From Klebsiella pneumoniae (lineage in GTDB: Bacteria > Myxococcota_A > UBA796 > SXON01): DNA of 64,000 nucleotides. Positions 46,954 through 62,729 of the stretch are shown in pieces. The stretch is taken from contig CAMAWH010000012.1 in NCBI GenBank assembly GCA_945861635.1, positions 47,953 through 111,952 on the forward strand. The letters run 5' to 3'. Made by a program: the position numbers and the translations under genes. The notes under the pieces are model-generated. The model saw nothing but the letters and a program-made list of their open reading frames with translations, had not been told where the DNA came from and did no database searches. Within the stretch, counting starts at the first letter, position 1, and every line of letters starts with the position of its first letter.

Positions 46954-47081
46954 CGAAATCCCATCCTCCGGGCCGCGCTGCTATCGCGCCCGGGCGGACT
47001 GCCAAGCGTGATTCCTTCGATCTTCTCCACTCGCCATCCGTCTGGTCCCCGCGGTACACTCGTCAGGATCGGAGGCAACGG

Positions 47082-47582
47082 ATGACGGACCGCCGCGAAA
47101 TGCTCCAGTGGGCCGTCTTTGGTGCGGTGGCCGCTGCCGTGATGCGGCCGGCGGCGGCAGCGGATTCGGTGGCGGCGACTCCGGGCGCGCCCTCTCCGAA
47201 AACGCCTGACAATCTCTCCTCAACGGGACTTATTTCTGTCCAGAGCGGACGAACGCTGGGCCTCGGATGGGCGCTCGTTTCGGCCGCGCCGCCCACCTCT
47301 GGAGCGATAACGCTGCACCTGGCCCACGACGACGGCCGGGGGGTGCGCGTCGACCTCTGCCTGCGAGAAGGAAGCGCACGAGGCCCGGCCGCCACCGAAT
47401 TTGTCGACTTCATCGTCATGGACGGTGGAAACGGCACCGCGCCGGTAGACGAAGCATTGGGAAGGGCGCTCCGCGTGCTCGCCGCCGAGCTTGAGGAAGT
47501 AGAAGCCCTGCACCTGACGGAGCTTTCGCTGTTGGAACCCCACGCCGACCGCACCTGGCGGTACCCGGACGCGCTCGGATGA
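47082..47582 (+). CDS. Tat-signal exported protein at the head of the Hxs locus
   Basis: 166 residues. The N terminus (TDRREMLQWAVFGAVAAAV) carries a twin-arginine followed by a hydrophobic stretch, a likely Tat signal, then an Ala/Pro linker and a compact domain of about 110 residues with no motif I recognise. GGAGG precedes the ATG by 6 bases. It overlaps the HxsD-like gene (ATGA), so it is the first gene of the modification operon. It could be a periplasmic partner of the modified peptide; function is not known. No clear sigma70 promoter is visible in the 128-base gap upstream. Confidence 0.65.
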   Translation: MTDRREMLQWAVFGAVAAAVMRPAAAADSVAATPGAPSPKTPDNLSSTGLISVQSGRTLGLGWALVSAAPPTSGAITLHLAHDDGRGVRVDLCLREGSARGPAATEFVDFIVMDGGNGTAPVDEALGRALRVLAAELEEVEALHLTELSLLEPHADRTWRYPDALG

Positions 47583-48007
47583 CGGAAAATCACCTCATTA
47601 CGAACGTCGAAGACCGTCGGGTGCGCTTCAGCGTGCCCGAAGAAATCTACGATCTCGACGTCATCATGGGGGCGGCGTACCTCTTTCTCGACCGCTGCTA
47701 CGTCTTTCTCGACCGCGTGGCCGATAAGCGCGTGCAGGTCGTCCTGCGCACGCGGGAGCCGATTGAGGACGATGCACCGCTGCACGCCCTGGCCGGGGAC
47801 TTCTCGAATGAACTCTTGAATCAGGCACTGCGTAAGAACATCGGCGACTCGAACGCCAAGATCCGTGAAATGATCATGGCGCGCGCGCTTTTCTCGGCCG
47901 ATGGACCGTCTACCATCGACCGCCTCCTCGCGGAGCTTGACGCCGAGGAAATGGCGTCGGATTCCCTCGATATTCCCGTTCCATGGGAGACCCCGAAGGA
48001 TGGCTGA
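47579..48007 (+). CDS. hxsD: HxsD-like protein 1 (His-Xaa-Ser system)
   Basis: 142 residues. The core segments VPEEIYDLDVIMGAAYLFLDRCYVFLD and GDFSNELLNQALRKNIG (quoted in parts) match my recollection of HxsD: an EIY-x-x-x-x-I-x-x-AAY-x-F-x-D-R-C strand-helix pair followed by an F-x-NELLNQALR helix. HxsD is a small partner of HxsB/HxsC, possibly a peptide-recognition or chaperone subunit. A C-terminal acidic extension (about 105-142) is not part of the core. It overlaps its neighbours on both sides. Confidence 0.75.
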   Translation: MTENHLITNVEDRRVRFSVPEEIYDLDVIMGAAYLFLDRCYVFLDRVADKRVQVVLRTREPIEDDAPLHALAGDFSNELLNQALRKNIGDSNAKIREMIMARALFSADGPSTIDRLLAELDAEEMASDSLDIPVPWETPKDG

Positions 48008-48227
48008 GCCGATCCGCATACGCTTCCACCGGTCGATCTACGACCCCACGGCCGTGCGCAAAGCGGCCGATCGTTTCGTGCATATTGCCGATGTCACCGT
48101 GGAAGATCACGAGCACGACACCGTCGTCACGCTGGTTCCTGCACGCGAATCGCTGCGGGCTCGCCTCGCCGACGAGGTGTCGAATCACGCGCTGTTCGAG
48201 TCGATCGTCGCCGCGAGGAGCGCGTGA
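48000..48227 (+). CDS. HxsD-like protein 2 (short paralogue)
   Basis: 75 residues from the ATG at 48000 (8-base overlap with the previous gene). It has the same layout in shorter form: FHRSIYDPTAVRKAADRF, then a strand pair, then LADEVSNHALFESIV in place of the FxNELLNQALR helix. This suggests a second, diverged HxsD-type subunit. The longer upstream frame is out of register with any conserved sequence. It overlaps the HxsB-like gene by 4 bases (GTGA). Confidence 0.65.
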   Translation: MAEPIRIRFHRSIYDPTAVRKAADRFVHIADVTVEDHEHDTVVTLVPARESLRARLADEVSNHALFESIVAARSA

Positions 48228-49744
48228 ACACCCCACTCGTAGTGGATCCCGGGTCGCTCAACCGGGAAAAGGTCGGATTTTTCCGCTACGGCATGGTGGG
48301 CGATCGGGTTTTACTGACCACGGACGGCGGCGAGCACCAGTTTCTCCAACCGGAGGAATTCCGCCGATATTTGACAGGCAACATCGAACCCGACGACGCG
48401 CTCTACCCGGAAATGCGCCGGAAGGGATTGTTCAAGCACGATTTCGACGTGGATGCGGCGGTTGCGCGTATCCGACGCAAAAAGGGATTTCTGGGATCGG
48501 CCCCTCACTTGCACGTCGTGGTGACCACGCTGCGGTGCAACCACGCCTGCAAGTATTGCCATGCGTCACGCACGGACATGGATCGCGTTGACACCGACAT
48601 GTCGCTGGAAACCGCGCGCAACGTCGTGGATCTCGCGTTCCAAAGCCCCTCGCCCGTCGTCAACTTCGAGTTTCAGGGCGGGGAGCCGACGGCCAACTTC
48701 GCGGTGATCCGCTTCATCTGTGACTACGCGCTGGAAAAGAATCGATACGAAAATCAGGAAATCCTGCTCTCGTTGGTATCGAATCTCTCCTTGATGGACG
48801 ACGAGAAGTTGCAATTCCTCCTTGACCGCGGCGTGATGGTCTGTACATCGCTCGACGGACCCGCCGATTTGCACGACCATAATCGCTCGTGGCAGGGAAA
48901 GGGCTCCAGTTACGCTACCGTGACCGGTTGGATGGATCGCCTGAACGCCGGCTGGGTGGCACGGGGATTGGATCCCGATTTGTTTCACGTCGATGCGTTG
49001 ATGACGACGACCCGGGCATCGCTCACGCGCGGCCGGGAAATCGTCGATGAATACGTTCGGCGCGGCATTCGCAGCATCCATTTGCGGCCGCTCAATCCAT
49101 TTGGCTTCGCCGTCAACACCTGGAAACAGATCGGCTACACGATGGAGGAATTTCTCGCGTTTTACAAAGATACGCTGGCGTACATTCTCGAATTGAATCG
49201 ACAAGGAATCTTCATCCAGGAGCGGCAGGCCTCCATTTTCCTGACCAAAATGCTGACGCCGGACGATCCCAACTACACGGATTGCCGCTCGCCGTGCGGA
49301 TCCGGCACGGCCACACTGGCGTACAACTTCGATGGGAGCGTATACACGTGCGATGAAGGCCGGATGGCCGCCCACATGGGAAACGATTTCTTCAAGTTGG
49401 GTCACGTCACCACGTCCACGTTCCGCGAGATCATGAACCACCCGACCGTGCGCGCACTGGCCGTAGCAAGCGTCCAGGATGCGCTTCCTGCCTGCTCAAC
49501 CTGCGTGTTCAAGCCGTCGTGCGGCATTCAGCCCCTGCACAACTACATGTTCGAGGGCGATATTTTCGGCCAGCGCCCGCGTTCCCGCAAATGCATTGAA
49601 TTCTACGGGCAGCAGGCGCATCTCTACGGGCTGCTGGCGGGGGATACCGACGGCGGGCTGGAACGCATCTTCCGCCGCTGGACCATACAACGGTCACGTC
49701 CGGGAACCATACCGTACCTGCCCGGAACCGAGGGGATCGCATGA
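48224..49744 (+). CDS. hxsB: HxsB-like radical SAM/SPASM maturase
   Basis: 506 residues. An N-terminal domain of about 95 residues (VGFFRYGMVGDRVLLTTDGG, FLQPEEFRRYLTG) is typical of HxsB. The radical SAM motif is C105-x3-C109-x2-C112 (LRCNHACKYCHASR), with the GGE motif in FEFQGGEPTANF. The C-terminal SPASM domain for two auxiliary [4Fe-4S] clusters is complete: CRSPCGSGTATLAYNFDG, YTCDEG, ACSTCVFKPSCG and RKCIEFYG. It should act on the adjacent Ser-His-Gly repeat peptide. GTG start overlaps the previous stop. Confidence 0.88.
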   Translation: MNTPLVVDPGSLNREKVGFFRYGMVGDRVLLTTDGGEHQFLQPEEFRRYLTGNIEPDDALYPEMRRKGLFKHDFDVDAAVARIRRKKGFLGSAPHLHVVVTTLRCNHACKYCHASRTDMDRVDTDMSLETARNVVDLAFQSPSPVVNFEFQGGEPTANFAVIRFICDYALEKNRYENQEILLSLVSNLSLMDDEKLQFLLDRGVMVCTSLDGPADLHDHNRSWQGKGSSYATVTGWMDRLNAGWVARGLDPDLFHVDALMTTTRASLTRGREIVDEYVRRGIRSIHLRPLNPFGFAVNTWKQIGYTMEEFLAFYKDTLAYILELNRQGIFIQERQASIFLTKMLTPDDPNYTDCRSPCGSGTATLAYNFDGSVYTCDEGRMAAHMGNDFFKLGHVTTSTFREIMNHPTVRALAVASVQDALPACSTCVFKPSCGIQPLHNYMFEGDIFGQRPRSRKCIEFYGQQAHLYGLLAGDTDGGLERIFRRWTIQRSRPGTIPYLPGTEGIA

Positions 49745-50154
49745 GTATACCTACCGATAAATCCCGGGCGTTTCCGGGCGTGCGCGCCGGCAGCGACTGG
49801 AAGGCGGACGACGAGTTTCCCGTCCTGAAACGGGAAGCCGCGCATTTCCTGCAACCGCGAGAAAAAGCGGCGGCCAACCAAGCAAGTGATACCGTGGCGC
49901 AAAGTCTCCTCCTGCTCCAGGCGACCGCCGGTGAGTTGGACCTCGATCCAGGTTTCCTGGATCGGAGCGGACAGGCCCCAAGCCGCGCCGCGCTCCTTGC
50001 GCAACATTGCTCGCACGGCTCGCATGGCTCCCACGGCTCCCACGGCTCCCACGGCTCCCATGGCTCGCACGGCTCCCACGGCTCGCACGGCTCCCACGGC
50101 TCCCACGGCTCCCACGGCTCCCACGGCTCCCATGGCTCCCACGGGCAGTGGTAA
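49741..50154 (+). CDS. HxsA-like RiPP precursor with 15 Ser-His-Gly repeats
   Basis: 137 residues. Residues 1-90 are a leader-like, partly helical region (TVAQSLLLLQATAGELDLD) ending in AQHC; residues 91-135 are 15 tandem Ser-His-Gly units (equally read as His-Gly-Ser), and the chain ends Gln-Trp. His-Xaa-Ser tails define HxsA precursors of Hxs systems, whose upstream partners HxsD and HxsB are present here. The leader is followed by a single Cys (residue 90) directly before the repeats. It overlaps the HxsB stop (ATGA); its 3' end overlaps the start of the next radical SAM gene by 23 bases. The modification chemistry is unknown. Confidence 0.85.
   Translation: MSIPTDKSRAFPGVRAGSDWKADDEFPVLKREAAHFLQPREKAAANQASDTVAQSLLLLQATAGELDLDPGFLDRSGQAPSRAALLAQHCSHGSHGSHGSHGSHGSHGSHGSHGSHGSHGSHGSHGSHGSHGSHGQW
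50011..50145 (+). repeat. Tandem 9-bp coding repeat, 15 copies
   Basis: Fifteen copies of a nine-base unit, mostly TCCCACGGC, with variants TCGCACGGC, TCGCATGGC, TCCCATGGC and a last TCCCACGGG. Differences are nearly all synonymous (TCC/TCG, CAC/CAT), so the Ser-His-Gly pattern has been kept by selection while copy number could change by slippage. The unit CATGGC supplies the ATG used by the next gene. Confidence 0.97.
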
Positions 50155-51115
50155 GTCCTCCCTGATTCTCGTCGTCACCCGTCGGTGCGATCTGCGTTGC
50201 GCGTACTGCCCGACCGCCAAGGATGGTGAGCCGGATCTAAGCGTTGCGGATGCGTTGCGCGCGCTGACCCTTTTCGTGGACCGATTCGGGGGCGGCGATT
50301 GCAAGATATTTGGGGGAGAACCTCTGCTCATGCCCGACGTTGTGCACGCCGTGATCGGTGCCGCGCCGCCGAACGTGTCGATGTACGTGTCGACGAACGG
50401 CACCCAACTCACACCGGCGTGGCTCGAAATCCTTCGGAAATATCCGCACGTCACCCTTACATTGAGCCTGGACGGGCGCGCGCGCGATCACGACGGGCTC
50501 CGACGCGGCGCGAAACAGGTTGCAACGTCGCACGCCGACGCGCTTCGAATATTGCCTGAACTCTTGACGTTGCCGCGCTTCGTGGTCACCCAAACCATCG
50601 CGCCGTCCACCGCAGCGCGCGCCGCGGAAAACTTCAGGTACCTCCTGTCTCTGGGCATCCGCCGGTTCAACCTGCTGCCCGGGTATTATCTGCCGTGGAC
50701 GGCCGACCAACTCTCCGCGCTGGAAAATGCGTTTCAGGAAATCGCAACCGAGTTTCAGCAGGCATGGCAACGCGGGGATCGTTTGTACCTTCGCAACCTG
50801 TTTACGCGTGCACCCACGCCATTTTACAATACCGGAATGGTGGTGGACAGCGACCGTCGGATTTATCCGTCCAATCTCATTCTTGCCGGAGCGCTCGACC
50901 ACCTGCGCGACGCCTTGGCGCTCGGGAATCTCGACCAACCTCCGTCGCGTGAACAACTCGAACAAGCGGCCCAGCGTGTGCCGGCACAGCTTGCCGCGAA
51001 TCTGCCCCCACGGGTGCTGGAATCGACCTACGCGGTGGACGGGGCGTTGACGCGCCTCTGCAACAGCCTGTATCCCGCATACTTTGAGCGGCGGGCGCGG
51101 GAGGTGGCGGCGTGA
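50132..51115 (+). CDS. Radical SAM protein 2, no SPASM domain (HxsC position)
   Basis: 327 residues starting at an ATG inside repeat unit 14. The motif C19-x3-C23-x2-C26 (RRCDLRCAYC) and FGGEPLLMP are intact. The C-terminal half has no Cys-rich auxiliary-cluster region, only a few isolated Cys. The gene right behind the precursor holds the place HxsC has in classical loci, but I cannot confirm the family. The frame continues upstream as an Ala-Pro-Thr repeat that is the shifted reading of the SHG repeats, so the longer versions are rejected. It overlaps the following gene by 4 bases (GTGA). Confidence 0.85.
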   Translation: MAPTGSGKSSLILVVTRRCDLRCAYCPTAKDGEPDLSVADALRALTLFVDRFGGGDCKIFGGEPLLMPDVVHAVIGAAPPNVSMYVSTNGTQLTPAWLEILRKYPHVTLTLSLDGRARDHDGLRRGAKQVATSHADALRILPELLTLPRFVVTQTIAPSTAARAAENFRYLLSLGIRRFNLLPGYYLPWTADQLSALENAFQEIATEFQQAWQRGDRLYLRNLFTRAPTPFYNTGMVVDSDRRIYPSNLILAGALDHLRDALALGNLDQPPSREQLEQAAQRVPAQLAANLPPRVLESTYAVDGALTRLCNSLYPAYFERRAREVAA

Positions 51116-52101
51116 GTCCACAGGCTGTCGACGCTCTGGTCACGCCTACCGCAGCGCCGGCGTGGATTTCCCCCACCACGGGCCAACCGATGCGGCGGTT
51201 GGAATTGCACGTCACCTACGTGTGTCCCGAGCGCTGCACGTTCTGTTCGGAAGATCATCGAATGCAGGCGTTTTCCGCCTTTCCGGTCACATGGGGTAGA
51301 GTGGCGCGAATTCTACGGGAACAGGCCGGTCGCGGGGTGGAGGCAGTCCATTTCACGGGCGGCGAACCCACGATTCACCCGCAGTTTGTGGAAATTCTTA
51401 AGTTGGCGAAACGCTTGGGGCTGAGAACCAGCATCGGCACCATCGGCACGCGGCTGGCGGATCCGACGTTTGCCGAAGCGGTGATGCCGAATCTCGATGA
51501 AGCATTATTTTCGCTGCACGGGCCCGATGCCGAAACGCATGACGCGCTGACCCGGAGGACGGGCAGTTTTGACCGTGTGCTTCGCGCGATTTCCCACGCC
51601 AGACGAAAACCGGGCTTTCGCCCCTTTATCAACACCGTTCTGACGCGCCAGAACCTGGCTCGGCTGCCAGAAACCGTCACATTGGCCCGAGAGTTGGATG
51701 CGTCCCTGTTGATTATTTCCAACGTCACGCCGGAAGGACTTGGCGACGACGGGTATGCCGACCTGACCGTTCGACTCGCCGACCTGACTCAGGCCGTTCC
51801 TGCCGTATTGGACGCTGCCGGCGGGATGATCGTTCGCTTCTTCGGCCTGCCGATGTGCGCGCTCGGCCCGGCGCGAATGCACGCCAACGACCTTCATTGG
51901 AATCCCCGCGTCACGATCGAATGGGCGCGGCACCCCGACCGCGTGTCCCTCGATCCGATCTATTCGTGGACGCCCGATCGCAAGCGGGAGCATGCGGCAG
52001 TTTGCATGGGATGTTCCTATCGTTCCCTGTGTTTCGGGGTTTTCGCCGCCTATCTCGAATTGCATGGGCCGGCAGAATTGGCGCCCGTGGAGGCTGCATG
52101 A
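51112..52101 (+). CDS. Radical SAM protein 3 with C-terminal CxxCxxxxxC cluster motif
   Basis: 329 residues. Radical SAM motif C38-x3-C42-x2-C45 (YVCPERCTFCSED), GGE motif in HFTGGEPTIHP. Near the end, C298-x2-C301-x5-C307 (CMGCSYRSLC) followed by FGVFAAYLELHG resembles a reduced SPASM/twitch auxiliary-cluster site; an upstream Cys (PMCALGP) may be the fourth ligand. The same end motif recurs in the later radical SAM proteins of this locus. GTG start, ATGA overlap with the next gene. Confidence 0.85.
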   Translation: MSPQAVDALVTPTAAPAWISPTTGQPMRRLELHVTYVCPERCTFCSEDHRMQAFSAFPVTWGRVARILREQAGRGVEAVHFTGGEPTIHPQFVEILKLAKRLGLRTSIGTIGTRLADPTFAEAVMPNLDEALFSLHGPDAETHDALTRRTGSFDRVLRAISHARRKPGFRPFINTVLTRQNLARLPETVTLARELDASLLIISNVTPEGLGDDGYADLTVRLADLTQAVPAVLDAAGGMIVRFFGLPMCALGPARMHANDLHWNPRVTIEWARHPDRVSLDPIYSWTPDRKREHAAVCMGCSYRSLCFGVFAAYLELHGPAELAPVEAA

Positions 52102-53120
52102 ACGACGGCGCGGAAATCTGGCGGGACACCCGCAAAAATGTCGAAATCAATGTGGGCAAGATTTGTAATAATAAGTGTGTATTTTGCCTCGACGGTCTGC
52201 CCGCCACGGACCTGCGCCGGTACATGCCGTGGCCGGATATGCAGGCGGAGATCCAGCGTTGGTATGCGTCGGGCACCCGTTCATTGGGATTTCTTGGTGG
52301 TGAGCCGACCACATATCCGTGGATTCTCGACGCCATCCGACTTGGGCGCGACCTCGGCTACACCCGGATTACCCTGGCGACGAACGGCACCAAATTTTTC
52401 CGACCGGAATTCGTGGACAAGGTGTTGGACGCCGGCCTGACGCGCGTCACGATGAGCATGCACGGGCATACTCCTCGGCTCGAGGATGCGCTTACGCGCG
52501 TGCCCGGTAACTTCGAGAAGAAAGTAGCCGGACTGAAGACATTGTTGGCGCGTCGTGACGCGGGTTTTCTTCGGGACAACGTGTCCGTGAACATTGTAGT
52601 AAACGCATGGAACTACAAATATCTGCCGGCAATTCTCCGATTCTTTTACGAGCTCGGGTTGGACGATGTGCGCGCAAACTTTGTGCGGGCGGAGGGCTAT
52701 GCGGAAACGGAAACGTCGTTGATCCCACGATTCACGGACGTCGTACCCTACGTCGTGAAGGCGATCCTCCTGAATGAATTCAAGTATCGACGCACATTTA
52801 CCGTCGGGAGTTTTCCGCTGTGCGTGCTCCCACCGGAGCTGCTCGGCAATAAAATGCTGGCTCGGAAATACGTCGGAGAGTTTCGCGACCTCGATACGGA
52901 TTGCTCCATCCGCACGCTGACAAGTGACGGATTTCCCGAGGGAATCGCAACCATCGAGGGCGGTCGGGCGCGGTTCAACTGGCAGGAACGGAAGCGTTTC
53001 GACCTCAAGACACACCCCGAGGGGCACTGCGAGGGCTGCCGATACACGGATGTGTGTGAGGGCGTGTGGAAGAACTACCTGCCGATTCACGGCCCGGGCG
53101 AGTTCAAGGCGATTCCGTAG
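52098..53120 (+). CDS. Radical SAM protein 4 with C-terminal CxxCxxxxxC cluster motif
   Basis: 340 residues. C23-x3-C27-x2-C30 (KICNNKCVFCLDG), GGE in FLGGEPTTYP, SMHGHTPRLEDALT at the substrate side; a C-terminal C311-x2-C314-x5-C320 (CEGCRYTDVC) with extra Cys in FPLCVLPP and TDCSIRT as possible fourth ligands. The codons around the cluster motif (52161-52187) are strikingly AT-rich for this genome. It closely resembles radical SAM protein 5 in its motif surroundings (CxFCLD, SxHGHTP), so the two may be paralogues. Confidence 0.85.
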   Translation: MNDGAEIWRDTRKNVEINVGKICNNKCVFCLDGLPATDLRRYMPWPDMQAEIQRWYASGTRSLGFLGGEPTTYPWILDAIRLGRDLGYTRITLATNGTKFFRPEFVDKVLDAGLTRVTMSMHGHTPRLEDALTRVPGNFEKKVAGLKTLLARRDAGFLRDNVSVNIVVNAWNYKYLPAILRFFYELGLDDVRANFVRAEGYAETETSLIPRFTDVVPYVVKAILLNEFKYRRTFTVGSFPLCVLPPELLGNKMLARKYVGEFRDLDTDCSIRTLTSDGFPEGIATIEGGRARFNWQERKRFDLKTHPEGHCEGCRYTDVCEGVWKNYLPIHGPGEFKAIP

Positions 53121-54233
53121 ATGCGATGGTTGGAGCTGCGCACGGGATATTCGGTGCGAAAGGACCACGCGGCCAGCAACGGGCCGGACGCGAGGCTGGG
53201 TGACGCCGAATCGCTGTTGGGAGCGTTGGACGGCGGTGGAGGCGGAATCTGGTTGACCGGAGGCGAGGTTGCCACTCGGCCGGACCTGACGGCGTTGATC
53301 ACGGGCGCCCGCTCCCGCGGATTTTCCCGAATCGGGCTCGAATCGAATGGACACATCGTCAGCGTGCTTGGGGCCGCAGCACAATTGCGCGGGCTCGGGC
53401 TCACCGACGCGACGGTGGCTGTCCACGCCCGCGATCCCGGGGTGCATGACTGGATTGTAGGGGCGAACGGTGCGTTTCGGCGAGCGGTCGCCGGCGCACG
53501 GGCGCTCGTGCGCGCGGGCATCGCGACACGCATCGTCAGCGTCGCAACGCGAACGAACATGGGCGAGTTGACCGCGCTTGCCCGTCTGGCCGCGGCTATC
53601 GGTGCCGGACATCGGATTCGCGTCGCGGTCGAGCGGGCACCATACGATCCGCACGCACGTATGGTGGTGCCAAGATTTTCATTGCTGCAATCGCACGTGA
53701 CTTCCGCCCTCCGGGCCGCCACCGACGCGCGAATCGAAGCGGACATCGTGGGGATGCCCCTGTGTTTCTTGCCTACCTTGCTGCCCCAGTCGGCCGACCG
53801 GTTGGACATTCCAAGACGGGGTTTGCTGTGCGCCGTCGCGGCCGATGCCCCGGCGCCAATGCCGGTGAAGGGGCCGCCGTGCGGCGGGTGCCGCCTGTCG
53901 GTCACCTGCCCAGGAGCGTCGGCCGCCTACATCGCACGCTGGGGATGGGATGAATTCCGCCCACCGGGTGCCGCCGAACGTCCACCGGACACGGACATCG
54001 TATCGCTCCACGTGGCAGCAACGGACGAGTCTTCCCGGTCCCTTCGGCAGCGTTTGGTACACGCAGCCACAAACCGGGCTGTCCCGGCAACGCACCTGCA
54101 CCTCACGGGGTGTGCCTCCGAGCACGCGTCCCTCCCCATTCTCCTCCGCGAAGCACGCCGCTTGGGGTTTGACACGATCGACGTCGCGGGGCGCGGTCCG
54201 ATCGAGAATGATGGGTCAGCCCCCATCGAGTAA
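53121..54233 (+). CDS. Pseudo-radical SAM protein (no CxxxCxxC) with C-terminal cluster motif
   Basis: 370 residues, starting with ATG directly after the previous stop. The barrel is recognisable (WLTGGEVATRPDLTALI, IGLESNGHIVSV), but the N-terminal cluster motif is absent: the matching segment reads YSVRKDHAASNG. The C-terminal auxiliary-type motif is kept (CGGCRLSVTCPG). A tail of about 85 residues follows, with HLHLTGCASEHASLPILL then ARRLGFDTIDVAG, which looks like the first strands of another radical SAM barrel with the GGEP motif lost. It cannot cleave SAM in the usual way; a scaffold or peptide-binding role is likely. Its end overlaps the convergent HExxH gene by 18 bases. Confidence 0.75.
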   Translation: MRWLELRTGYSVRKDHAASNGPDARLGDAESLLGALDGGGGGIWLTGGEVATRPDLTALITGARSRGFSRIGLESNGHIVSVLGAAAQLRGLGLTDATVAVHARDPGVHDWIVGANGAFRRAVAGARALVRAGIATRIVSVATRTNMGELTALARLAAAIGAGHRIRVAVERAPYDPHARMVVPRFSLLQSHVTSALRAATDARIEADIVGMPLCFLPTLLPQSADRLDIPRRGLLCAVAADAPAPMPVKGPPCGGCRLSVTCPGASAAYIARWGWDEFRPPGAAERPPDTDIVSLHVAATDESSRSLRQRLVHAATNRAVPATHLHLTGCASEHASLPILLREARRLGFDTIDVAGRGPIENDGSAPIE

Positions 54234-55358
54234 CGGACTCGCGTCGAATTCACGGGCTAGCGCGTCCAAGCCCGCCAACAACCTGGCTCCAATCACCGTG
54301 GTGACCGCCTCTTGCCGCAAGACCGCCATCCCCTCACGATTCACGCGCCGGACCGCCCGAAGCCGCTCGGGAGCCGTCGGATAGGAACCCAGGGCAACCA
54401 GCTCCCGCAGCATCGCCTCTACCGGCAAAAACGCGTGCACTGCCAACAGGAGCCCCCACAGCGGGCGAAGGTCCGGACGGACGGGTGATACAACGAATGT
54501 ATCCGCATTCTGTAGCAAAGGATCCGAGTACGACAGAAGATTCGCCTTGTTGTGCTGGCACTCGTGGACCAGCGCCTCCGCCATGATCACCGGGTCCGGG
54601 TGCAGTGACACATAGACTTGCCCAATGGCCTCCCGGTAAGATGCTGACAAACTACGCTCGGCATCCGTCCCCACTGGAGTGATACATGAAAGTATCAACT
54701 CATGTTCCGACGCGAGATCGGGTAATACGCCGCGAATCAACGCGCGTGCTTCATTAATCCGCACCATCCATGTTTCAGTCGATGCCTCACCTAGCGCGAT
54801 GGTGTTGCCCGCCTTCTCGGGGTGTGCATCGATGTGGGCGAGTGGATTCGCATCGCCTAGCGCGAACCAGCCGCCGCACGCCAGCCCTCGAAACGCGTCC
54901 TCGATACCGACGAGCTCCCACTCGTCATGCCGGGCAGTCGATACGCGTCCCGGCATGAACAGGACGCCCACAAGTGGCGGGTCGTATCGCCGGGCCACGC
55001 CGAGAGGCGGATTGGTCAGGGCCGCCACCGGGGCGGACCACCACACCCCCTCGGCCGGTAGGAGTCGCCGGCGAGCCAGCTCCAACAGCAGGTTTGGCAT
55101 CGCGATGCCAAGCGCCCCCGCGTGCAGGGGGGCGCCCACCGCCGGGAGCAGGAGCGCCGCCGACACCTGCATGGGATGACTTCGATAGAGTGAAGCTACT
55201 GTTTCGCGCGCCGCGTTGTACGGCGGAACGAGAAATCCCGGCAGCGGCAGCGGCCAATCGAGCAAACGCCGCAAGCTCTGGCGCACGTAGTGCGCGCGTG
55301 CCGGTCGGAGCCAATCCTCGCCGGCGACCGGGATCGTATAGGGTGCCGCCGGGAGCAT
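54216..55358 (-). CDS. alphaKG-HExxH type peptide beta-hydroxylase
   Basis: 380 residues. The HExxH motif at 265-269 (VHECQHNKANLLSYSDPLL) followed by SPVRPDLRPLWGLLLAVHAF fits the HExxH-motif RiPP enzyme family (TIGR04267-type), whose members act as alpha-ketoglutarate-dependent iron beta-hydroxylases on precursor peptides. It is not a protease of the thermolysin kind, which lacks the R-x-D-x-R-P-L-x-G-L-L extension. The start at 55358 gives the known N-terminal helical part; the longer frame reads into the radical SAM gene. The only enzyme of the locus on the minus strand. Confidence 0.8.
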   Translation of the reverse strand: MLPAAPYTIPVAGEDWLRPARAHYVRQSLRRLLDWPLPLPGFLVPPYNAARETVASLYRSHPMQVSAALLLPAVGAPLHAGALGIAMPNLLLELARRRLLPAEGVWWSAPVAALTNPPLGVARRYDPPLVGVLFMPGRVSTARHDEWELVGIEDAFRGLACGGWFALGDANPLAHIDAHPEKAGNTIALGEASTETWMVRINEARALIRGVLPDLASEHELILSCITPVGTDAERSLSASYREAIGQVYVSLHPDPVIMAEALVHECQHNKANLLSYSDPLLQNADTFVVSPVRPDLRPLWGLLLAVHAFLPVEAMLRELVALGSYPTAPERLRAVRRVNREGMAVLRQEAVTTVIGARLLAGLDALAREFDASPLLDGG

Positions 55359-55380
55359 GCTACGGTGGGGCCTATCCCAC

Positions 55381-57060
55381 ATGGACGCTACGCTGCCCCT
55401 GACGCTCGACCACGAGCGCGTCGCCAACGAAATCAAGCATTGGGTTCGCCTGACCGCGGCGTGCAACTCCAAGTGTATTTTCTGCCTGGACGCAGAGGCG
55501 CAGGACGGCAGGTTCATGGCCTTCGACGATATCCAGACGGAAATCCGACGCGGTCGCGACGAGAAGGGCGCGACGCGGCTCGTGGTCAGCGGCGGAGAGG
55601 CCACGCTGCATCCGCAGTTTCACGACGCCGTGCGGTACGGAAAATACGTCGGCTATCGTTGGGTGCAGACGGTTACCAACGGGCAGCGCCTGGCCGATCG
55701 CGGGTATTTACTTTCCGCCCTCGACGCCGGACTCGACGAGATCACATTTTCCCTCCACGGGCACACCCCGGAGCTGCACGACCGCTTGACTCGAACCAAG
55801 AACGGCTTCGAAAACCTCATGCGCGGGATGGTGCGTGCCGTCCGCCTCGATCGCTGCGTCGTGAACGTAGACGTCTGTATCAACCGTCAGAATGTGGAGC
55901 ACCTCGAAGCGATCGTGGCCCTGTGCGCACGCGTCGGCGTGCGGGAATTCGATCTCCTCCACATCATTCCGCAAGGCGTGGCGTTCGAAAATCGCGAGGA
56001 GTTGTTCTACGACGTCGACCAACACGCCGACAGTCTCCGGCGAGCATTCCGCCTGGCGCGCCATCCTGATTTCCACATTTGGACCAACCGGTTTCCGGTC
56101 CAGCATCTGGAGGGCATGGAGGAGTTGATTCAAGACCCTCATAAAATGCTCGACGAGGTCGGCGGGCGGCGCCGGCAGTTCCGCCGCTACCTCGACACGG
56201 GCGCACCGATAGAGTGCCGAGACAAGGCGCGTTGTCCGCATTGTTTCATTGAGCCTTTCTGCTCGGCGCTCGATCGCCACGTGTCGGACCAGCGTGCCGG
56301 GGCATTCACGGTCTGGTGGGTTGGGGATCGGCACGATCTGGTGGACCGCCGCCCCCCCGGCACAATTCAGGTCGGAACCAACACCATGCCCGCCGCGCCA
56401 GTTCCCGTATACCTCCGGGCGGCGAGTTTCGTAGACGCCGTATTTCCGGCAGGCTCACGGGCCGTCGCCACGCGGCCAGAGCACCTGGACCAACTGGCCG
56501 GGGTGAACGTTGATGTCGAGGTTCATCTGACGAAAGAAATGTGCGCTGGTTTGGTCGGTCGCGCCATTGCAGCCAACTGGATCCTCCACGCGCCAACATA
56601 TTTGCACGCGGCGGAGTCGGCCGCGCTCGACCCTGACTATCGGGGTTTTTTCACGGGACTGGCGCCTGGCGCGCGCGCCCAGAACTTGCCAGCCTGCCTC
56701 GCTCCCGGCGCCATGCTGGAAGCCGCCCCCCGCATTCTTGACGCCTCGCTGTTTCACCAGACCGGAGAAATGGCGATTGATGCTTTCGTGGATGGGTACG
56801 TGCAACATGAGTATCGCGCGAAATCGCTGCGATGTTCCAGCTGTGCCGTGAACCACGCCTGCCCAGGCGCGCAATTGCAATATCTACGTGCGCACGGATT
56901 CAAACAACTCCAGCCCCTGACGCAAGCCGTTTCCGTGCCCGTGTTCACGTCTCCCCGCCTACGAGACGGCGTCGTCCCACAGCCGGGTTCCGTTCGACTG
57001 CCCTTGCCCGGAAACGCCCCCGTTCCCTTCATCGATACCGCTCCCGGTCGGCGTTCCTGA
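55381..57060 (+). CDS. Radical SAM protein 5 with a long C-terminal second domain
   Basis: 559 residues. C28-x3-C32-x2-C35 (TAACNSKCIFCLDAE), GGE in VSGGEATLHP, and a cluster motif CPHCFIEPFC at about 288-297 end the first unit. Residues about 320-559 form a second part with no cluster motif at its start, but ending in another CSSCAVNHACPGAQLQYLRAHG. This looks like a fused degenerate radical SAM half or a second auxiliary-cluster domain. The start at 55381 (not the ATG at 55357) leaves 22 bases to the divergent hydroxylase gene. It touches the next gene by one base (TGATG). Confidence 0.82.
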   Translation: MDATLPLTLDHERVANEIKHWVRLTAACNSKCIFCLDAEAQDGRFMAFDDIQTEIRRGRDEKGATRLVVSGGEATLHPQFHDAVRYGKYVGYRWVQTVTNGQRLADRGYLLSALDAGLDEITFSLHGHTPELHDRLTRTKNGFENLMRGMVRAVRLDRCVVNVDVCINRQNVEHLEAIVALCARVGVREFDLLHIIPQGVAFENREELFYDVDQHADSLRRAFRLARHPDFHIWTNRFPVQHLEGMEELIQDPHKMLDEVGGRRRQFRRYLDTGAPIECRDKARCPHCFIEPFCSALDRHVSDQRAGAFTVWWVGDRHDLVDRRPPGTIQVGTNTMPAAPVPVYLRAASFVDAVFPAGSRAVATRPEHLDQLAGVNVDVEVHLTKEMCAGLVGRAIAANWILHAPTYLHAAESAALDPDYRGFFTGLAPGARAQNLPACLAPGAMLEAAPRILDASLFHQTGEMAIDAFVDGYVQHEYRAKSLRCSSCAVNHACPGAQLQYLRAHGFKQLQPLTQAVSVPVFTSPRLRDGVVPQPGSVRLPLPGNAPVPFIDTAPGRRS

Positions 57061-58112
57061 TGGCGAATCTCGGCTACCTCCAGCTCACGCGGGAGTGTCG
57101 GCAGCACTGCCGGTTCTGCTCGAATCCACCCAGCGGAGTGTACCTGTCGGACGCCGAGATGCAGGAGGCCCTGGACGATCTCGTGACGCGCGGGTACGAC
57201 GGAGTCATCCTTACCGGCGGCGAACCGACCTTGGCGCCGCTGCTGCTTCCCGCCGTCGAGTTCGCCAAGTCGCGGGGGTTGTTCATCCGCATGATCACGA
57301 ATGGCCAACGGGTCTCCGAATTGGATTTTCTGCGGGGTTTGGTAGACGCCGGCCTCACCCACCTCCACCTTTCCCTGCACTCGGGGCGGCGTCAGGTGCA
57401 TGATTTCTTGACGCAAACTCCGGGCAGTTTCGATCACATCGATGCCGCGCTCGGCCATGTCGCGGCCCTTGGTATCACCGCCGATATCAATACGGTGATC
57501 AACGCGTACAATTCAGACCACCTCGACGAAACCGTGCGTTGGGTGGTTGCCAATCATTCGCACGTTCGGCATTTTGTTTGGAACAACATGGACCCGAACA
57601 TGAATCGTGCGGAGCGCAACCCGGACGTCATTCCGCGCCTCGGAGAGTTCGAGTTGTCTCTGCGCCGGTCCATGGAGTTTCTCACGGCCACCCGACGAAC
57701 GTTCCGAGCGGAGCGCGTACCGCTCTGCTACATGCCCGATTTCGCCGAATCATCGACGGAAACGCGGAAGATCGTAAAGGAAGAGGAGCGCTGCATTCGT
57801 TTCCTCGACAAGAAGGGCTTTGTGCTGCAAAAACAATTCCTGCATGGAAAGGCGGAGGCTTGCAATCATTGCACGCTCGACCCGATATGTGCCGGCCTCT
57901 ACAGCATGTCGTACCATTACGACCCCGCCGAGTTGTTTCCTGTTGTGCGAGATCCCGTCGCCGTCATGCGGCGGGTATTGCGCGCGGAGCCTTCTCCCGA
58001 GTTGGTTGAACGCGTGTTGGCGCGCCGCGGAATGCGCTCGGACGAGCAACCCGATGACCACGGACAGCGTACCCCCGGCGCCTCCAGTCTTTCCGGAAAT
58101 GACCATGCCTGA
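57060..58112 (+). CDS. Radical SAM protein 6 with C-terminal CxxCxxxxxC cluster motif
   Basis: 350 residues from the ATG at 57060. C13-x3-C17-x2-C20 (RECRQHCRFCSNPP), GGE in LTGGEPTLAP, LSLHSGRRQVHDFLTQTPGS on the substrate side; the C-terminal CNHCTLDPIC with a preceding ERCIRFL may hold one auxiliary cluster. The tail (about 290-350) is charged and disordered-looking. It overlaps the ferredoxin gene, its probable electron donor. Confidence 0.85.
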   Translation: MANLGYLQLTRECRQHCRFCSNPPSGVYLSDAEMQEALDDLVTRGYDGVILTGGEPTLAPLLLPAVEFAKSRGLFIRMITNGQRVSELDFLRGLVDAGLTHLHLSLHSGRRQVHDFLTQTPGSFDHIDAALGHVAALGITADINTVINAYNSDHLDETVRWVVANHSHVRHFVWNNMDPNMNRAERNPDVIPRLGEFELSLRRSMEFLTATRRTFRAERVPLCYMPDFAESSTETRKIVKEEERCIRFLDKKGFVLQKQFLHGKAEACNHCTLDPICAGLYSMSYHYDPAELFPVVRDPVAVMRRVLRAEPSPELVERVLARRGMRSDEQPDDHGQRTPGASSLSGNDHA

Positions 58113-58350
58113 TCCGAACAAAAAACACCCGCAGAACGCTGCTGGTCCGTGGTACGTGGATTCCACGTGCATTTCCTGCGACACGTGTACCGACATTTCA
58201 CCCGAGATATTTTCCCGCGACACGAACCGAAAGGCCTTTGTGCGGGAGCACCGCCCTGGCGAGTCGGACCTGTTTCGCTTCGCGGTAGAAAGCTGCCCGG
58301 TGGAGGCGGTGGGAGCAGACGAGCCGCCGGATCAGGGGCAGCGCCGGTAG
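58105..58350 (+). CDS. Single-cluster [4Fe-4S] ferredoxin
   Basis: 81 residues. The cluster ligands are C-x2-C-x2-C in CISCDTCTDISPEIF and a distant CPVEAVG, the pattern of one-cluster ferredoxins. The segment FSRDTNRKAFV is the usual loop between them. It overlaps radical SAM gene 6 by 8 bases, so it is probably the dedicated electron donor for the radical SAM enzymes. An ATG 6 bases upstream (58099) is equally in frame. It converges on the membrane protein gene with a 19-base overlap. Confidence 0.88.
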   Translation: MPDPNKKHPQNAAGPWYVDSTCISCDTCTDISPEIFSRDTNRKAFVREHRPGESDLFRFAVESCPVEAVGADEPPDQGQRR

Positions 58351-60080
58351 AAGCCAACGTCGAAGCCGCCGGTGGGTAACGGTAGGTCAACGTCACTCAC
58401 GCCGACGATCGTTTCCACGGCAACCGGGCAGGCCGTGCGGACGCACGCCGGCGCTGACACATCGTTGATACATGCCAGGCCGTGATACAAAATCGATGGT
58501 TCATCGCTGTCCGACCAGCGTGCCTTGCCCATGGATTCCATGACCATCCGGAACTTTTCGGCATGGGAGGCGGAGCTGACGAAGCGAATCCGAGCGTCCG
58601 CCGGCAGCGTCGGAACCGTCTCCGCGAGAAAGCGGAATTCGCGCGCCTGCGGATATTCTGGGACGGCGTGCCACAGATACGGTGCCGCGCCAGCAAGGAG
58701 CAGGAGCCACCCCCATCGTCGTAAGGCGTAAACGCCGTATCCGACGAGCAGTGCCCAACCAACCTGCGCGGGGAGCTGGAGGCGGATAGCATCGGCCAGC
58801 GGCCACACCTTCGTCACGACCGCGCCGGTTCCCAAGGCGATCGTCGCAATCGCCAGCCACCGCAGGGCGCGCGGCGCACACACCATGCCGACGAGTGCCA
58901 GCGCCCACCAGGCCGGAGGCGTGAACCCCGCGTGGAGGAAAAGCTGAAACGCTCGTTCGGGCTCGGGCATGCCGATGCGAGGGGTGAGCGCGTGGGTAAG
59001 CGTCTCCGCATCCAACAATGTTTCCGGTTGTAGAACGGCGGTCGACACCGGCAGTGTCGAAGCCCGCCCGAGCACGCCCAGCACAAGTGCACCCACGAAG
59101 GGAAGGCGGAATCGGGACGGGTTCCCCCAGAGAAGGGCCGCCGGGAGCACCGCGAGAGGAAGCGCGTCCGGCCGGGTGTAGACCATCGCCACAGTTGCAG
59201 CGACGGCCGCCATGCCTCCCGCCCCCCCCGCAGGGGCCGCCACCAGCGCCGCCAGCAACAGCGTCGTCACAGGAATGTGCAGCGCCTCACTTCGGGACAG
59301 GGCCAGATGCGCAGGAAGCAGGGTCAGCGCGACCGCCGCGGCAAGCGCGGGGCTGTCTGTACGCGCCCATCGGCACACCAGCACGTAGAGCAGCGCCGGG
59401 GCCAGCGCTGCCACCACCAGATTGCCCGTGAAAATGCTGGACGGCGTGGCCCCGAGCACCGCGACGAACGGTGCCATGACCACCGCAAACCCCGGACCGT
59501 ACGGCGTTCCCCACTCCCACCCGAGTCCGATGCCGAGCTTCTCGTAGCCGGCCCCCCCGCCGTTGAAAATACCCGGCGAGACGACCGCCAAACGGACGCA
59601 TAGGGCGACGACAACGATGGCGATCGGTCGCCATGTCCACCGACGAATCGTCGTGAGGGCTGCCACCAGACCGACGACGGCAAGCGCCCCCAGATAGCGG
59701 CCAACGGCGCCAGCGGATGCCTGGATTGGACTCTCCGGCGTTCCCGTTCGCGGACGCAAACGGGCGTCGGAAGCGGCCAACCGTTCGCATAGCGGCGAGA
59801 GGTCGATGCTGTCCGTCTTTCCGGAGCCGAGGTCGTAGCGCGGGTAGATCGTCAGGCCGTGCGTTGCGCAGAGTCCTTCGTGCACCGGGTCAGCGGTCGT
59901 CAGTTCGGCGGGCAGCGTGCCCCCGGCGCTATCGACCCAATACCGCTCATACTCGGAATGCACCTCCACGCGCACGACGCGGCCATAGCCGATAATGTCT
60001 CCTACAGCGGCAATCTCGCCGGCCGGAACGTCCCGCGGATCTTCTGCGACGGCGCTTGCTATCGAGGCGAACCACCACAC
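58332..60080 (-). CDS. Multi-pass membrane protein, GT-C glycosyltransferase-like
   Basis: 582 residues. An N-terminal periplasmic part (about 15-125) precedes roughly ten hydrophobic helices (from about 130 to 470) and a C-terminal extracytoplasmic domain. The segment GWEWGTPYGPGFAVVMAPF after the first helices resembles the first external loop of ArnT/PMT-type GT-C enzymes (YGPG), which move sugars from polyprenyl carriers. No clear catalytic Asp pair was assigned. GTG start, divergent from the Ig-repeat gene. Whether it belongs to the Hxs locus is unclear; opposite strand and envelope character argue against it. Confidence 0.75.
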   Translation of the reverse strand: MWWFASIASAVAEDPRDVPAGEIAAVGDIIGYGRVVRVEVHSEYERYWVDSAGGTLPAELTTADPVHEGLCATHGLTIYPRYDLGSGKTDSIDLSPLCERLAASDARLRPRTGTPESPIQASAGAVGRYLGALAVVGLVAALTTIRRWTWRPIAIVVVALCVRLAVVSPGIFNGGGAGYEKLGIGLGWEWGTPYGPGFAVVMAPFVAVLGATPSSIFTGNLVVAALAPALLYVLVCRWARTDSPALAAAVALTLLPAHLALSRSEALHIPVTTLLLAALVAAPAGGAGGMAAVAATVAMVYTRPDALPLAVLPAALLWGNPSRFRLPFVGALVLGVLGRASTLPVSTAVLQPETLLDAETLTHALTPRIGMPEPERAFQLFLHAGFTPPAWWALALVGMVCAPRALRWLAIATIALGTGAVVTKVWPLADAIRLQLPAQVGWALLVGYGVYALRRWGWLLLLAGAAPYLWHAVPEYPQAREFRFLAETVPTLPADARIRFVSSASHAEKFRMVMESMGKARWSDSDEPSILYHGLACINDVSAPACVRTACPVAVETIVGVSDVDLPLPTGGFDVGFYRRCP

Positions 60081-60136: not shown

Positions 60137-62729
60137 GGGCGCGTCGAGGTGTGTCATTCGCAGCGCGTTCGCACTTTTGGTCCTGGCCGGCTGCGGCGAT
60201 ACCACCGTGAGCAAATTCAGTGAGCCGCCGATTGTGGCTATCGAGAGCCCCGCGACGGGCTCCACCATCGATGAGGGCGTCTCGATCGAGATGAGCGGGC
60301 GCGTCGTGGATAAGCGATACACGGACAGCCTTGATCAAGAGCGGGCCGTGTGGGCCGTAGACGGCGCAAAAGTCTGCGAGGCCGCCGTTTTCGATACGAA
60401 CGGGCTGAGCACGTGCGCCCATATATTTTCCGCGGGGCCGGCCACGGTCAGCCTGACGGCAACCAACCCGGACGGCCGGACGGCGAATGCAATTTCTGAG
60501 CTTACCGTCAACGTGAATCACGCGCCGAGCGCGGAAATCACCTCCCCGGTGAATGGCACCGAATATTACAGCAATTCCCTGACCGATTTCGAAGGGTTTG
60601 CGACGGACGGTGAAGACCTCTCGGAGCTGCTCACCGTGCGGTGGGAGTCGTCCATCGATGGAATTCTGCCGATCACCGCCCCGCCGTCTGGGGACGGCAA
60701 GATTTCAGGCAGCACCACGCTCACCGTCGGCGAGCACCGCCTCCTGCTCACCATCACCGATACCACCGGCCGCACGGGCACGGATTCCACCAGCATTTAC
60801 GTCGTCGCGGGCAGTCGGCCGGATCTCGAATTGTTGTCGCCTGTTTCCGGCGACCTGGCCAACTACGGCGACAAGGTGAATTTTGAGGCGCATGTTACCG
60901 ACGCGGAGGACGACCCTGCGGATCTGCTGTTCAGTTGGACGTCCAGTATCGACGGCGAGTTCCGCACCGACGGCGCGTCCTCGTCCGGAGACGCAGGATT
61001 CACCTACGATGGGCTTACGAACGGCACGCACACCATTACGGTGACGGTGACGGATACGGATGGAATCACGGCGCGCGACAGCGCGACGTTGTACGTCAAT
61101 ACGCTTCCCTCGGCCCCGACCGTCCTCATTTCTCCCGACCCTGCGGGCTCCGATGATGATTTGGCGGTGAATATCACCGGCCCCTCGGTAGACGGAGAAG
61201 GCGACCCGATCACGTATTCGTACCTTTGGTATCAGAACGGCGTCGTCACGACCTACATTTCCAATCCCCTCCCCCGCGCGGCCACGACACGCGGAGAGAT
61301 TTGGACGGTCGAAGTTGCGCCCAACGATGGTCACGGAGATGGGCTGGTGGGTCTGGACAGTATTTCCATCGGAAATGGCCCGCCCTCGGCCACCGGCGTC
61401 AGTATTTCGCCGGCCACGGCGTACACCGACGACATGCTGACCGCCATCGTGACGGGTTGGTCCGACCCGGACGGAGACGTCGAAGGCTACCATTACCAGT
61501 GGTTCAAGAATGGCGCGCCCATCGCCGGCGCCACCGATCCAACGCTCGCGGGAACGTATTTTTCCAAAGGCGACGATGTGGTGGTGGAGGCGACCCCATG
61601 GGATGCCGCGGATGAAGGTGCGCCGCTCGCCTCGGGCACGCGAACGATCCAAAATAGCGTACCGACAACACCGGGTGTTGCGGTCATTCCCGAGCGGCCG
61701 GAGCAGGACGACGGGCTGGAGTGCACGATCATCGCTGCGTCCACCGACGCCGACGGTGACGCCATCACCTACACCTACAGTTGGACCAACAACGGCTCGG
61801 CAACCGGCCTTGCCACGTCAACCGTGGCGGCCTCCTACACAAGCGATGGCGAGACGTGGGAATGTACGGTCACCCCCGCGGATAGCTCGGGCGCCGGAAC
61901 GGCAGGCGTCGATTCCGTCGTGGTCAACGACTACACGGCGCCGGACGCGCCGATCCTGACCGCAATCGATGAATATCGCAACGAAACAAGCGCCGTCATC
62001 TACGGCACGACGGAAGCCAACGTCGATGTCACGCTCTACATGGTCACATCCACGGGAACGAGCACGGACACCACCACGGCGTCGGCGGCCGGCTCGTTCA
62101 CGTTCTCGGAGGCCCTGACGCGCGGTTCGTCGTACAGTGTCTACGCCACCGCCACCGACAGCGCCGGCAATACCAGCGCTGTGTCGAACACGCTGTCCAC
62201 CGAGGTGTGCGACCCCTACGACGATTACGAGGACTCCACGGGCTACGGAGATTCGTGCACCAACCCGGTTATCGATTGGGCCACGGTTGCGGACGACGGC
62301 GCAACGACCATCACGCTGACCGGAAATATACTCGAAAGTTCGGACGAGGACTGGCTGCTGGTCGAAACGTCCGATAGCGTCGGACCGGGCATTAATTACT
62401 ATCGTTTCCATGTGGAAATGACGCATGGAACCAGCACATACGGCTTCGCGGTCTATGAGGGCGGGTGCACGAACGCATATCTGGACTGCGCCGCCGGGAG
62501 CAGTTCCGACCCGGAGGGCTCCGGCTATTCAGAATATGAATATTATGCGCAGGACGTTGGCGATGGCGGACACACGATTCCCGGAGAAACGCGGTACTGC
62601 TACGACGGCCACGGCGAATATAATAATTGCGATGACCTGTCGAGTGACTACTACATTCACGTCTTCCGAAACACCTCGAGCTATTCCTGTGAATACTACG
62701 AGCTGGAAATCACCAACGGAACCTGGTAG
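60108..62729 (+). CDS. Large Ig-repeat surface lipoprotein, start codon uncertain
   Basis: About 860-875 residues. A lipoprotein signal (RSAFALLVLAGCGD, lipobox LAGC) is followed by about seven Ig/cadherin-like modules: three opening with VAIESPATGSTIDEG-type strands, three with SPATAYTDDMLTAIV and DPDGDVEGYHYQWFKNG motifs, and one APILTAIDEYRNETSAVIYG module; the C-terminal 180 residues are a separate Tyr/Cys-rich domain. It is probably displayed on the cell surface. No ATG or GTG stands at a sensible distance before the signal. The coordinates use the TTG at 60108; an ATT at 60156, preceded by GAGG, would give a 13-residue signal like those of neighbouring lipoproteins. Confidence 0.75.
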   Translation: MRVAQKPRILGASRCVIRSAFALLVLAGCGDTTVSKFSEPPIVAIESPATGSTIDEGVSIEMSGRVVDKRYTDSLDQERAVWAVDGAKVCEAAVFDTNGLSTCAHIFSAGPATVSLTATNPDGRTANAISELTVNVNHAPSAEITSPVNGTEYYSNSLTDFEGFATDGEDLSELLTVRWESSIDGILPITAPPSGDGKISGSTTLTVGEHRLLLTITDTTGRTGTDSTSIYVVAGSRPDLELLSPVSGDLANYGDKVNFEAHVTDAEDDPADLLFSWTSSIDGEFRTDGASSSGDAGFTYDGLTNGTHTITVTVTDTDGITARDSATLYVNTLPSAPTVLISPDPAGSDDDLAVNITGPSVDGEGDPITYSYLWYQNGVVTTYISNPLPRAATTRGEIWTVEVAPNDGHGDGLVGLDSISIGNGPPSATGVSISPATAYTDDMLTAIVTGWSDPDGDVEGYHYQWFKNGAPIAGATDPTLAGTYFSKGDDVVVEATPWDAADEGAPLASGTRTIQNSVPTTPGVAVIPERPEQDDGLECTIIAASTDADGDAITYTYSWTNNGSATGLATSTVAASYTSDGETWECTVTPADSSGAGTAGVDSVVVNDYTAPDAPILTAIDEYRNETSAVIYGTTEANVDVTLYMVTSTGTSTDTTTASAAGSFTFSEALTRGSSYSVYATATDSAGNTSAVSNTLSTEVCDPYDDYEDSTGYGDSCTNPVIDWATVADDGATTITLTGNILESSDEDWLLVETSDSVGPGINYYRFHVEMTHGTSTYGFAVYEGGCTNAYLDCAAGSSSDPEGSGYSEYEYYAQDVGDGGHTIPGETRYCYDGHGEYNNCDDLSSDYYIHVFRNTSSYSCEYYELEITNGTW

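Follow-up and report, generated by a model that had tools for sequence, protein, structure and literature searches.

A variant His-Xaa-Ser peptide locus that combines a Ser-His-Gly repeat precursor and six radical SAM proteins

His-Xaa-Ser (Hxs) systems are loci for ribosomally synthesized and post-translationally modified peptides (RiPPs); as described by Haft and Basu, according to the section of PMC9062424 that cites them, they consist of HxsA, HxsB, HxsC and HxsD. Here we describe a related locus in a 64,000-nucleotide stretch of contig CAMAWH010000012.1 (positions 47,953 to 111,952 of the forward strand; GenBank assembly GCA_945861635.1), which is filed under Klebsiella pneumoniae and has the GTDB lineage Myxococcota_A, UBA796, SXON01. 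We refer to this whole stretch as the window. Open reading frames and profile searches place 13 genes, designated A to M, at window positions 47082–58350. Like Hxs systems, the locus has HxsB and HxsD above cut-off and an adjacent His-Xaa-Ser repeat precursor. It differs in having no above-cut-off HxsC and in adding five HxsC-like paralogues, a PapB-like radical S-adenosylmethionine (SAM) protein, an alpha-ketoglutarate (alphaKG)-HExxH protein, a ferredoxin and protein A.

Other described systems share part of this chemistry or architecture. Three-residue cyclophane-forming enzymes (3-CyFEs) link C2 of His to Cβ of Ala or Arg at i/i+2 spacing, and MscB links Phe to Cβ of Ser at the same spacing (both from PMC11002830). 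In the case described in PMC12636437, ChlH hydroxylates His and Asp at the β position and requires a preinstalled cyclophane. The locus resembles triceptides and fused radical SAM/alphaKG-HExxH systems (ChlB/ChlH) in having an aromatic residue with an i+2 partner and a protein that can be aligned with ChlH; it differs from them in that its HExxH protein is a separate gene, in its five further motif-bearing radical SAM proteins, in its repeat polymer core and in that its HxsB scores far under the cyclophane maturase cut-offs. The poly-cyclopropylglycine RiPP system TvgA/TvgB also has a repetitive core, a radical SAM enzyme that acts on several repeats and, in its cluster, a putative dioxygenase gene, but its repeat is TVGG and it uses a single radical SAM enzyme, and the abstract and passages of PMC9062424 that were covered mention neither HxsB nor HxsD for it. 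That paper also mentions RiPP clusters with 3–5 radical SAM genes.

Our literature search, which covered few subscription journals, returned no Hxs chemistry (the systems are named from sequence), no paper on HxsA4 or HxsC4, none on a RiPP cluster with at least five radical SAM genes, and neither the enzyme set of this locus and its conservation nor the precursor rule given below. The original prediction, which was made from the letters of the window, knew of no described system with this set of parts; that is true of the set as a whole, but the parts HxsA4, HxsC4 and HxsD_rel had already been named by NCBI curators.

A variant of the Hxs system

NCBI curated cut-offs were passed by the products of genes B, C, D, E and J, and a Pfam cut-off by that of M. 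All genes except J are on the plus strand. Gene B (47579–48007) encodes HxsD (TIGR03976, 64.2 bits; cut-off 50) and gene C (48000–48227) an HxsD-like protein of the HxsD_rel family (NF038315, 52.2 bits; cut-off 41). Gene D (48224–49744) encodes HxsB, a radical SAM/SPASM maturase with the motif CNHACKYC and a matched SPASM domain (TIGR03978, 494 bits; cut-off 370). The precursor gene, E (49741–50154), encodes a leader followed by the core HC(SHG)15QW and passes the HxsA4 profile (NF038313, 91.2 bits; cut-off 55). Farther along are the alphaKG-HExxH gene J (54216–55358, minus strand; HECQH, TIGR04267, 83.5 bits; cut-off 40) and gene M (58105–58350), for a single-cluster ferredoxin (Pfam Fer4_13, 53.5 bits; cut-off 24.5).

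Besides HxsB, five proteins carry the radical SAM motif CX3CX2C. The product of F (50132–51115) has CDLRCAYC and no C-terminal CX2CX5C; it matches the PapB profile weakly (NF047865, 92.9 bits against a cut-off of 340) and does not belong to PapB by score. G (51112–52101) encodes an HxsC-like protein with CPERCTFC and a C-terminal CX2CX5C, H (52098–53120) an HxsC4-like protein with CNNKCVFC, and L (57060–58112) an HxsC-like protein with CRQHCRFC. K (55381–57060) encodes an HxsC-like protein with CNSKCIFC, CPHCFIEPFC and, in an extra C-terminal domain with a second CX2CX5C, CSSCAVNHAC. The structural model of K (predicted local distance difference test score 88) has a radical SAM domain that resembles those of BlsE and SkfB and a C-terminal stretch whose own CX2CX5C may bind a second auxiliary cluster. 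The product of I (53121–54233) has the radical SAM fold, but its CX3CX2C is replaced by VRKDHAAS, and an auxiliary CX2CX5C is kept.

These results bear out the inventory of the original prediction, namely two HxsD-like proteins, an HxsB-like radical SAM/SPASM enzyme, a precursor with 15 SHG units, five further CxxxCxxC radical SAM proteins, another with the radical SAM fold but not the motif, an HExxH enzyme and a ferredoxin. The genes are as tightly packed as had been claimed: with the starts chosen for F (50132) and K (55381), 10 of the 12 adjacent pairs overlap by 1–23 bp, H and I abut, and J and K are 22 bp apart. Because J lies on the minus strand, there must be at least two plus-strand units around it (A–I and K–M).

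The proposal that this is an Hxs-type locus is supported by HxsB, HxsD and HxsA4; HxsC is absent at the NCBI cut-off. No locus protein passed the HxsC cut-off (TIGR03977; the best was L, with 82.6 of 267.9 bits), and none passed that of HxsC4 (NF038332), although the precursor and the HxsD-like protein of the same NCBIfam series do pass; H, which is closest to HxsC4 and matches it across nearly its entire length, reached 156.8 of 500 bits. G, H, I, K and L match both profiles below their cut-offs, and in a midpoint-rooted tree they group together, with F apart. By profile and tree, the place of HxsC is taken by these five HxsC-like paralogues. Since HxsB, HxsD and an HxsA4-type precursor are found and HxsC is not, the locus is, on these scores, an Hxs variant and not the standard four-part system.

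The precursor and its repeat

The core of E has exactly 15 SHG units, and this is the sole tandem array detected at 47000–58400. Precursors share a leader motif of approximately LPxLxKxxxxFLQ, and their cores mostly begin with HC. We counted the units of 81 complete cores, found in the window and in the loci that we numbered L021–L115: a core has from 4 to 49 units, and 1,318 of the 1,340 units are SHG. The departures affect Gly 19 times (15 to Ala), His three times and Ser never, which indicates that Ser and His are held and that, within His-Xaa-Ser, the middle position tolerates the most change. Synonymous sites are free to vary across the arrays, and serine codons even switch between the AGC and TCN types. 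DNA slippage as the sole keeper of the repeat was rejected, because codons differ while residues do not. The repeat is thus kept at the protein level despite many synonymous changes, and the gene order recurs in relatives (see below); together these place the locus beyond chance. We read the match of E to the Pfam collagen family (33.3 bits) as a putative low-complexity match.

Conservation of the gene set

Of 21 other genomes in the family, 15 have HxsB at 69–76% identity. We fetched 15 same-family loci. The full A–L order is present in all seven that are long enough (L023, L024, L026, L027, L029, L030 and L033); the other eight end at contig or slice edges. M is present in four of the four A–L loci that reach that far. 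Because the heuristic gene caller missed or mis-started some genes, we scored gene presence by tblastn. Identity to same-family relatives is 61–82% for the six radical SAM proteins that have the motif, 47–55% for J and 40–55% for A; M is 65–80% identical in four relatives. At the level of the order, most loci retain A-B-C-D-E-F-G and many also have H. The original prediction had named, as results that would count against it, a failure of the HxsD and HxsB profiles to match and the absence of the same neighbours from other genomes; both profiles match above cut-off, and the set recurs.

Across the presumed phylum, HxsA4 (NF038313) scored above cut-off in 115 of 377 genomes and HxsB in 125. The co-occurrence table, which takes in 113 of the 115 HxsA4-positive genomes, has 110 genomes with both, three with HxsA4 only, 15 with HxsB only and 249 with neither. 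The three HxsA4-only genomes (G229, G252 and G292) are 89%, 68% and 58% complete, and several HxsB-only genomes hold sub-cut-off HxsA4 matches. A Fisher test on this table was set aside, as it takes no account of relatedness. We also hand-chose 21 genomes for their precursors, most of them with a precursor that has no adjacent HxsB (one, G363, also has an HxsB-adjacent precursor). HxsB is present in all 21, and on this ground we rejected the idea that orphan precursors mark HxsB as dispensable. H, a mark of the expanded set, occurs in 40 of the 377 genomes at E ≤ 1 × 10−70.

Two kinds of precursor

Precursors are of two kinds, ending in (SHG)nQW or (SHG)nSW. We searched 95 loci (L021–L115), hand-picked from match lists, and scored 80 arrays, of which 37 are QW and 43 SW; the count leaves aside arrays that lack a stop, contain N or end in another tail. 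A gene was taken as present if it gave a tblastn match above a set score within 12 kb of the precursor, and as cut where the sequence ended too early. F lies near 32 QW precursors, with one without it and four cut, and near no SW precursor (42 without, one cut). The distribution of G is almost the same (QW: 31 with, two without, four cut; SW: none with, 42 without, one cut). H is near 18 QW precursors (nine without, ten cut) and near no SW precursor (41 without, two cut); weak paralogues that resemble G and H (27–33% identical) do occur near SW precursors. The last 20 loci were added after the pattern had been seen, several of them for holding H or a second HxsB. Among these, F is present in four of five QW loci (the fifth is cut 314 bases on) and in none of six SW loci. 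Three genomes hold both kinds of precursor, sorted in the same way: G212 (L096 and L067), G180 (L064 and L097) and G151 (L061 and L103). These comparisons make F and G, by sequence, clear markers tied to the QW precursor type, and H, K, L and I tied by neighbourhood only.

Proteins I, J and A

The site that reads VRKDHAAS in I is CNxxCxFC in all 11 aligned relatives (eight from the equivalent locus position and three I-like genes of other loci). I retains the flanks of the site, GGE and the C-terminal CX2CX5C, and its frame is open over 370 codons. The end branch of I is 0.89, compared with 0.04–0.24 for F, G, H, K and L of the window, and same-family I proteins reach 0.51; the tree indicates that the I family as a whole evolves fast. 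That a frameshift or an assembly error removed the motif is disfavoured, as CX3CX2C is absent from all three plus-strand frames of the I stretch. The motif-less protein is also recorded on two contigs, possibly from the same reads, which again counts against an assembly error; the protein search behind this record, like that for homologues of A, scored only candidates sharing most words. A low codon score of I was dropped as a sign, because G scores about alike. We read the motif loss as specific to this lineage, probably a recent loss of catalysis that has left either a scaffold or a decaying gene. On this evidence the motif-less state is not a constant feature of the system.

J aligns with ChlH (8s5f) through the HExxH region (E = 3.1 × 10−6); H265, E266 and H269 are invariant in 10 aligned sequences, and J reaches the TIGR04267 family score and has the HExxH motif. 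We regard it as a predicted peptide β-hydroxylase. Gene A (47082–47582) encodes a 166-residue protein of an unnamed family, with no match in Pfam or NCBIfam at E ≤ 1, and none of its 39 homologues carries a Pfam domain. Its model had no match in the PDB at E ≤ 0.001, and comparison with known folds gave no convincing match. All 23 aligned sequences have R4 and R5, an arginine pair like that of twin-arginine translocation (Tat) signals, so that A is likely exported; its Tat-like N terminus suggests that the product likely ends outside the cytoplasm.

A proposed maturation scheme and its alternatives

Our preferred reading is that the locus matures one HC(SHG)15QW precursor stepwise with six radical SAM proteins, the motif-less I, J and M, and that HxsB likely closes His–Ser links; for us, belief and doubt in it are about evenly balanced. 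In the original prediction, all enzymes would act on the one peptide, with different chemistry; the sorting of the tails ties F and G to this precursor type. HxsD and the HxsD-like protein would likely bind the conserved leader and hand the core to HxsB, which would iterate along it, linking each His (i) to Ser (i+2). J would act next, as a β-hydroxylase of residues in the core, probably His above all; F and G would carry out or recognize a step specific to QW; and H, K and L (as well as I in relatives) would add more oxidative steps or links. Electrons would likely come from M and host flavodoxins. I, its cluster lost in this lineage, would serve at most as a scaffold, and the product would likely end outside the cytoplasm. 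We infer every chemical step in this scheme, as well as the order of the steps and the destination of the product.

His-to-Ser links are proposed because H-G-S has the i/i+2 spacing of the three-residue cyclophane enzymes; for HxsB the idea is an analogy, as its scores place it outside those families. A bolder form of the scheme, a ladder of about 15 strained β-hydroxylated His–Ser rings made by six radical SAM enzymes, with the C-terminal Gln-Trp as an address that sets them apart from the Ser-Trp system next to them in some genomes and with one member turned scaffold, seems to us unlikely. If it were true, no radical peptide line known to us would be richer in enzymes.

Several observations weigh against the preferred reading. 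HxsB of the window is below the cut-offs of XyeB (46.5 of 450 bits), GrrM/OscB (42.7 of 310), YhhB (46.9 of 445) and AmcB (44.6 of 425), and its best solved sequence relative, 5wgg, titled 'radical SAM domain protein', is presumably CteB, a thioether enzyme. H is missing from nine of the 27 scorable QW loci, L046 is a QW locus without F and G, and L044 is one without G. Homologues of K, L and J are also found near SW precursors, and several order-level loci have K and L, or just L, upstream and not downstream. Thus, not every enzyme of the locus need act on E or be specific to it. The two tails need just two changes on the HxsB tree, one old split and the Elusimicrobia locus L161, so that the tie of QW and SW to F and G is clear but reflects few independent events. 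Both I and J are visible in eight same-family loci, and in six of these 2.6–7.1 kb of other genes separate the two. Profile searches found no protease, leader peptidase or exporter among the family matches of the locus.

Part of this evidence could instead mean that two systems are adjacent, with A–I maturing the SHG peptide and J-K-L-M, merely neighbouring, serving another substrate. The genes between I and J fit such a division (the frames there are what we take to be DUF502-like and ABC-F-like genes in L023 and L024 and his-operon-like genes in L025), as do the opposite strand of J, the upstream position of K and L or of L alone relative to A, and the K and L homologues near SW precursors. 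We consider it rather unlikely, as I and J meet directly in L029, L030 and the window, no second repeat precursor accompanies the one array, J, K and L lie within 12 kb of the precursor in family loci and many order-level loci, and L homologues adjoin the precursor in the SW loci L069 and L070 (41 and 24 bp away). It is somewhat unlikely, in our estimate, that there are no cross-links at all and that the repeats are oxidized or epimerized at single residues, giving a linear His-rich polymer that binds metal or haem. Every third residue is His, the spread in unit number is polymer-like, and SHG precursors that head an apparent cytochrome c maturation operon in one family (5 of 5 loci; see below) hint at haem or metal. 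Against this, an i/i+2 link accounts better than plain metal binding for the invariant Ser at i+2 and for the greater tolerance of the middle residue, and the locus has an HExxH relative of ChlH, an enzyme that in the case described requires a cyclophane to be in place beforehand. Finally, the cluster loss in I, with all three cysteines gone and a long end branch, might mark a pathway that is leaving use in this lineage. Decay of the whole locus appears very improbable, given that the other genes are open, that the six motif-bearing radical SAM proteins are as similar to their relatives as given above and that I itself retains its long open frame and auxiliary CX2CX5C.

Neighbouring genes and distant loci

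A lipoprotein-like Ig-domain protein (Pfam Big_13) is encoded on the plus strand at 60177–62729, 1.8 kb downstream of the locus. Homologues of it (39–44% identical) lie directly upstream of A in 11 of 17 order-level loci (L036–L052), which suggests that the Ig-domain protein of the window may be a surface partner. Second HxsB-like genes (45–48% identical) occur in genomes of the family and order (L053, L054 and L055); two of these three loci have an I-like radical SAM gene adjacent on the other strand, and no SHG array was present in the slice.

In the family that we call f16, all five fetched loci (L081, L082, L083, L089 and L095) have an SHG precursor of the SW type as the first gene of what looks like a cytochrome c maturation operon. 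CcmE, CcmF and CcmB were recognized by Pfam in L082, and the other four loci were assigned by homology to it.

Farther afield, two loci of Elusimicrobia (L161 and L157) have QW-type SHG precursors and distant homologues of F, G and H; the units of L161 are a mixture of SHA, SHG and SHC. A further Elusimicrobia locus (L189; CALEIX010000178.1) has eleven CX3CX2C frames in 15.5 kb, counted by motif only, of which two are HxsB-like by tblastn; no SHG precursor was seen in that stretch. In a Parcubacteria locus (L182; LCLB01000001.1), a fragment resembling HxsB is accompanied by a series of HxsC-like radical SAM genes and by a His-Xaa-Ser peptide that has CCC close to its end. Minicystis rosea DSM 24000 (L183; CP016211.1) encodes homologues of K and L (37% and 47% identical) and an H-like protein (31%), with no SHG array in its 21-kb stretch.

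Implications

A precursor with short identical units, together with the core set of HxsD, HxsD-like protein and HxsB, provides a handle on Hxs systems. The five HxsC-like paralogues here, like the eleven frames counted by motif in L189, illustrate how far a peptide line can expand by adding one type of radical SAM protein, and the difference between QW and SW predicts which enzymes are paired with which precursor, even inside one genome. Protein I offers a naturally occurring example of how an enzyme becomes a pseudoenzyme within an otherwise intact set. If the His–Ser link is true, the product would be a new covalent polymer of His, with possible metal or haem binding.

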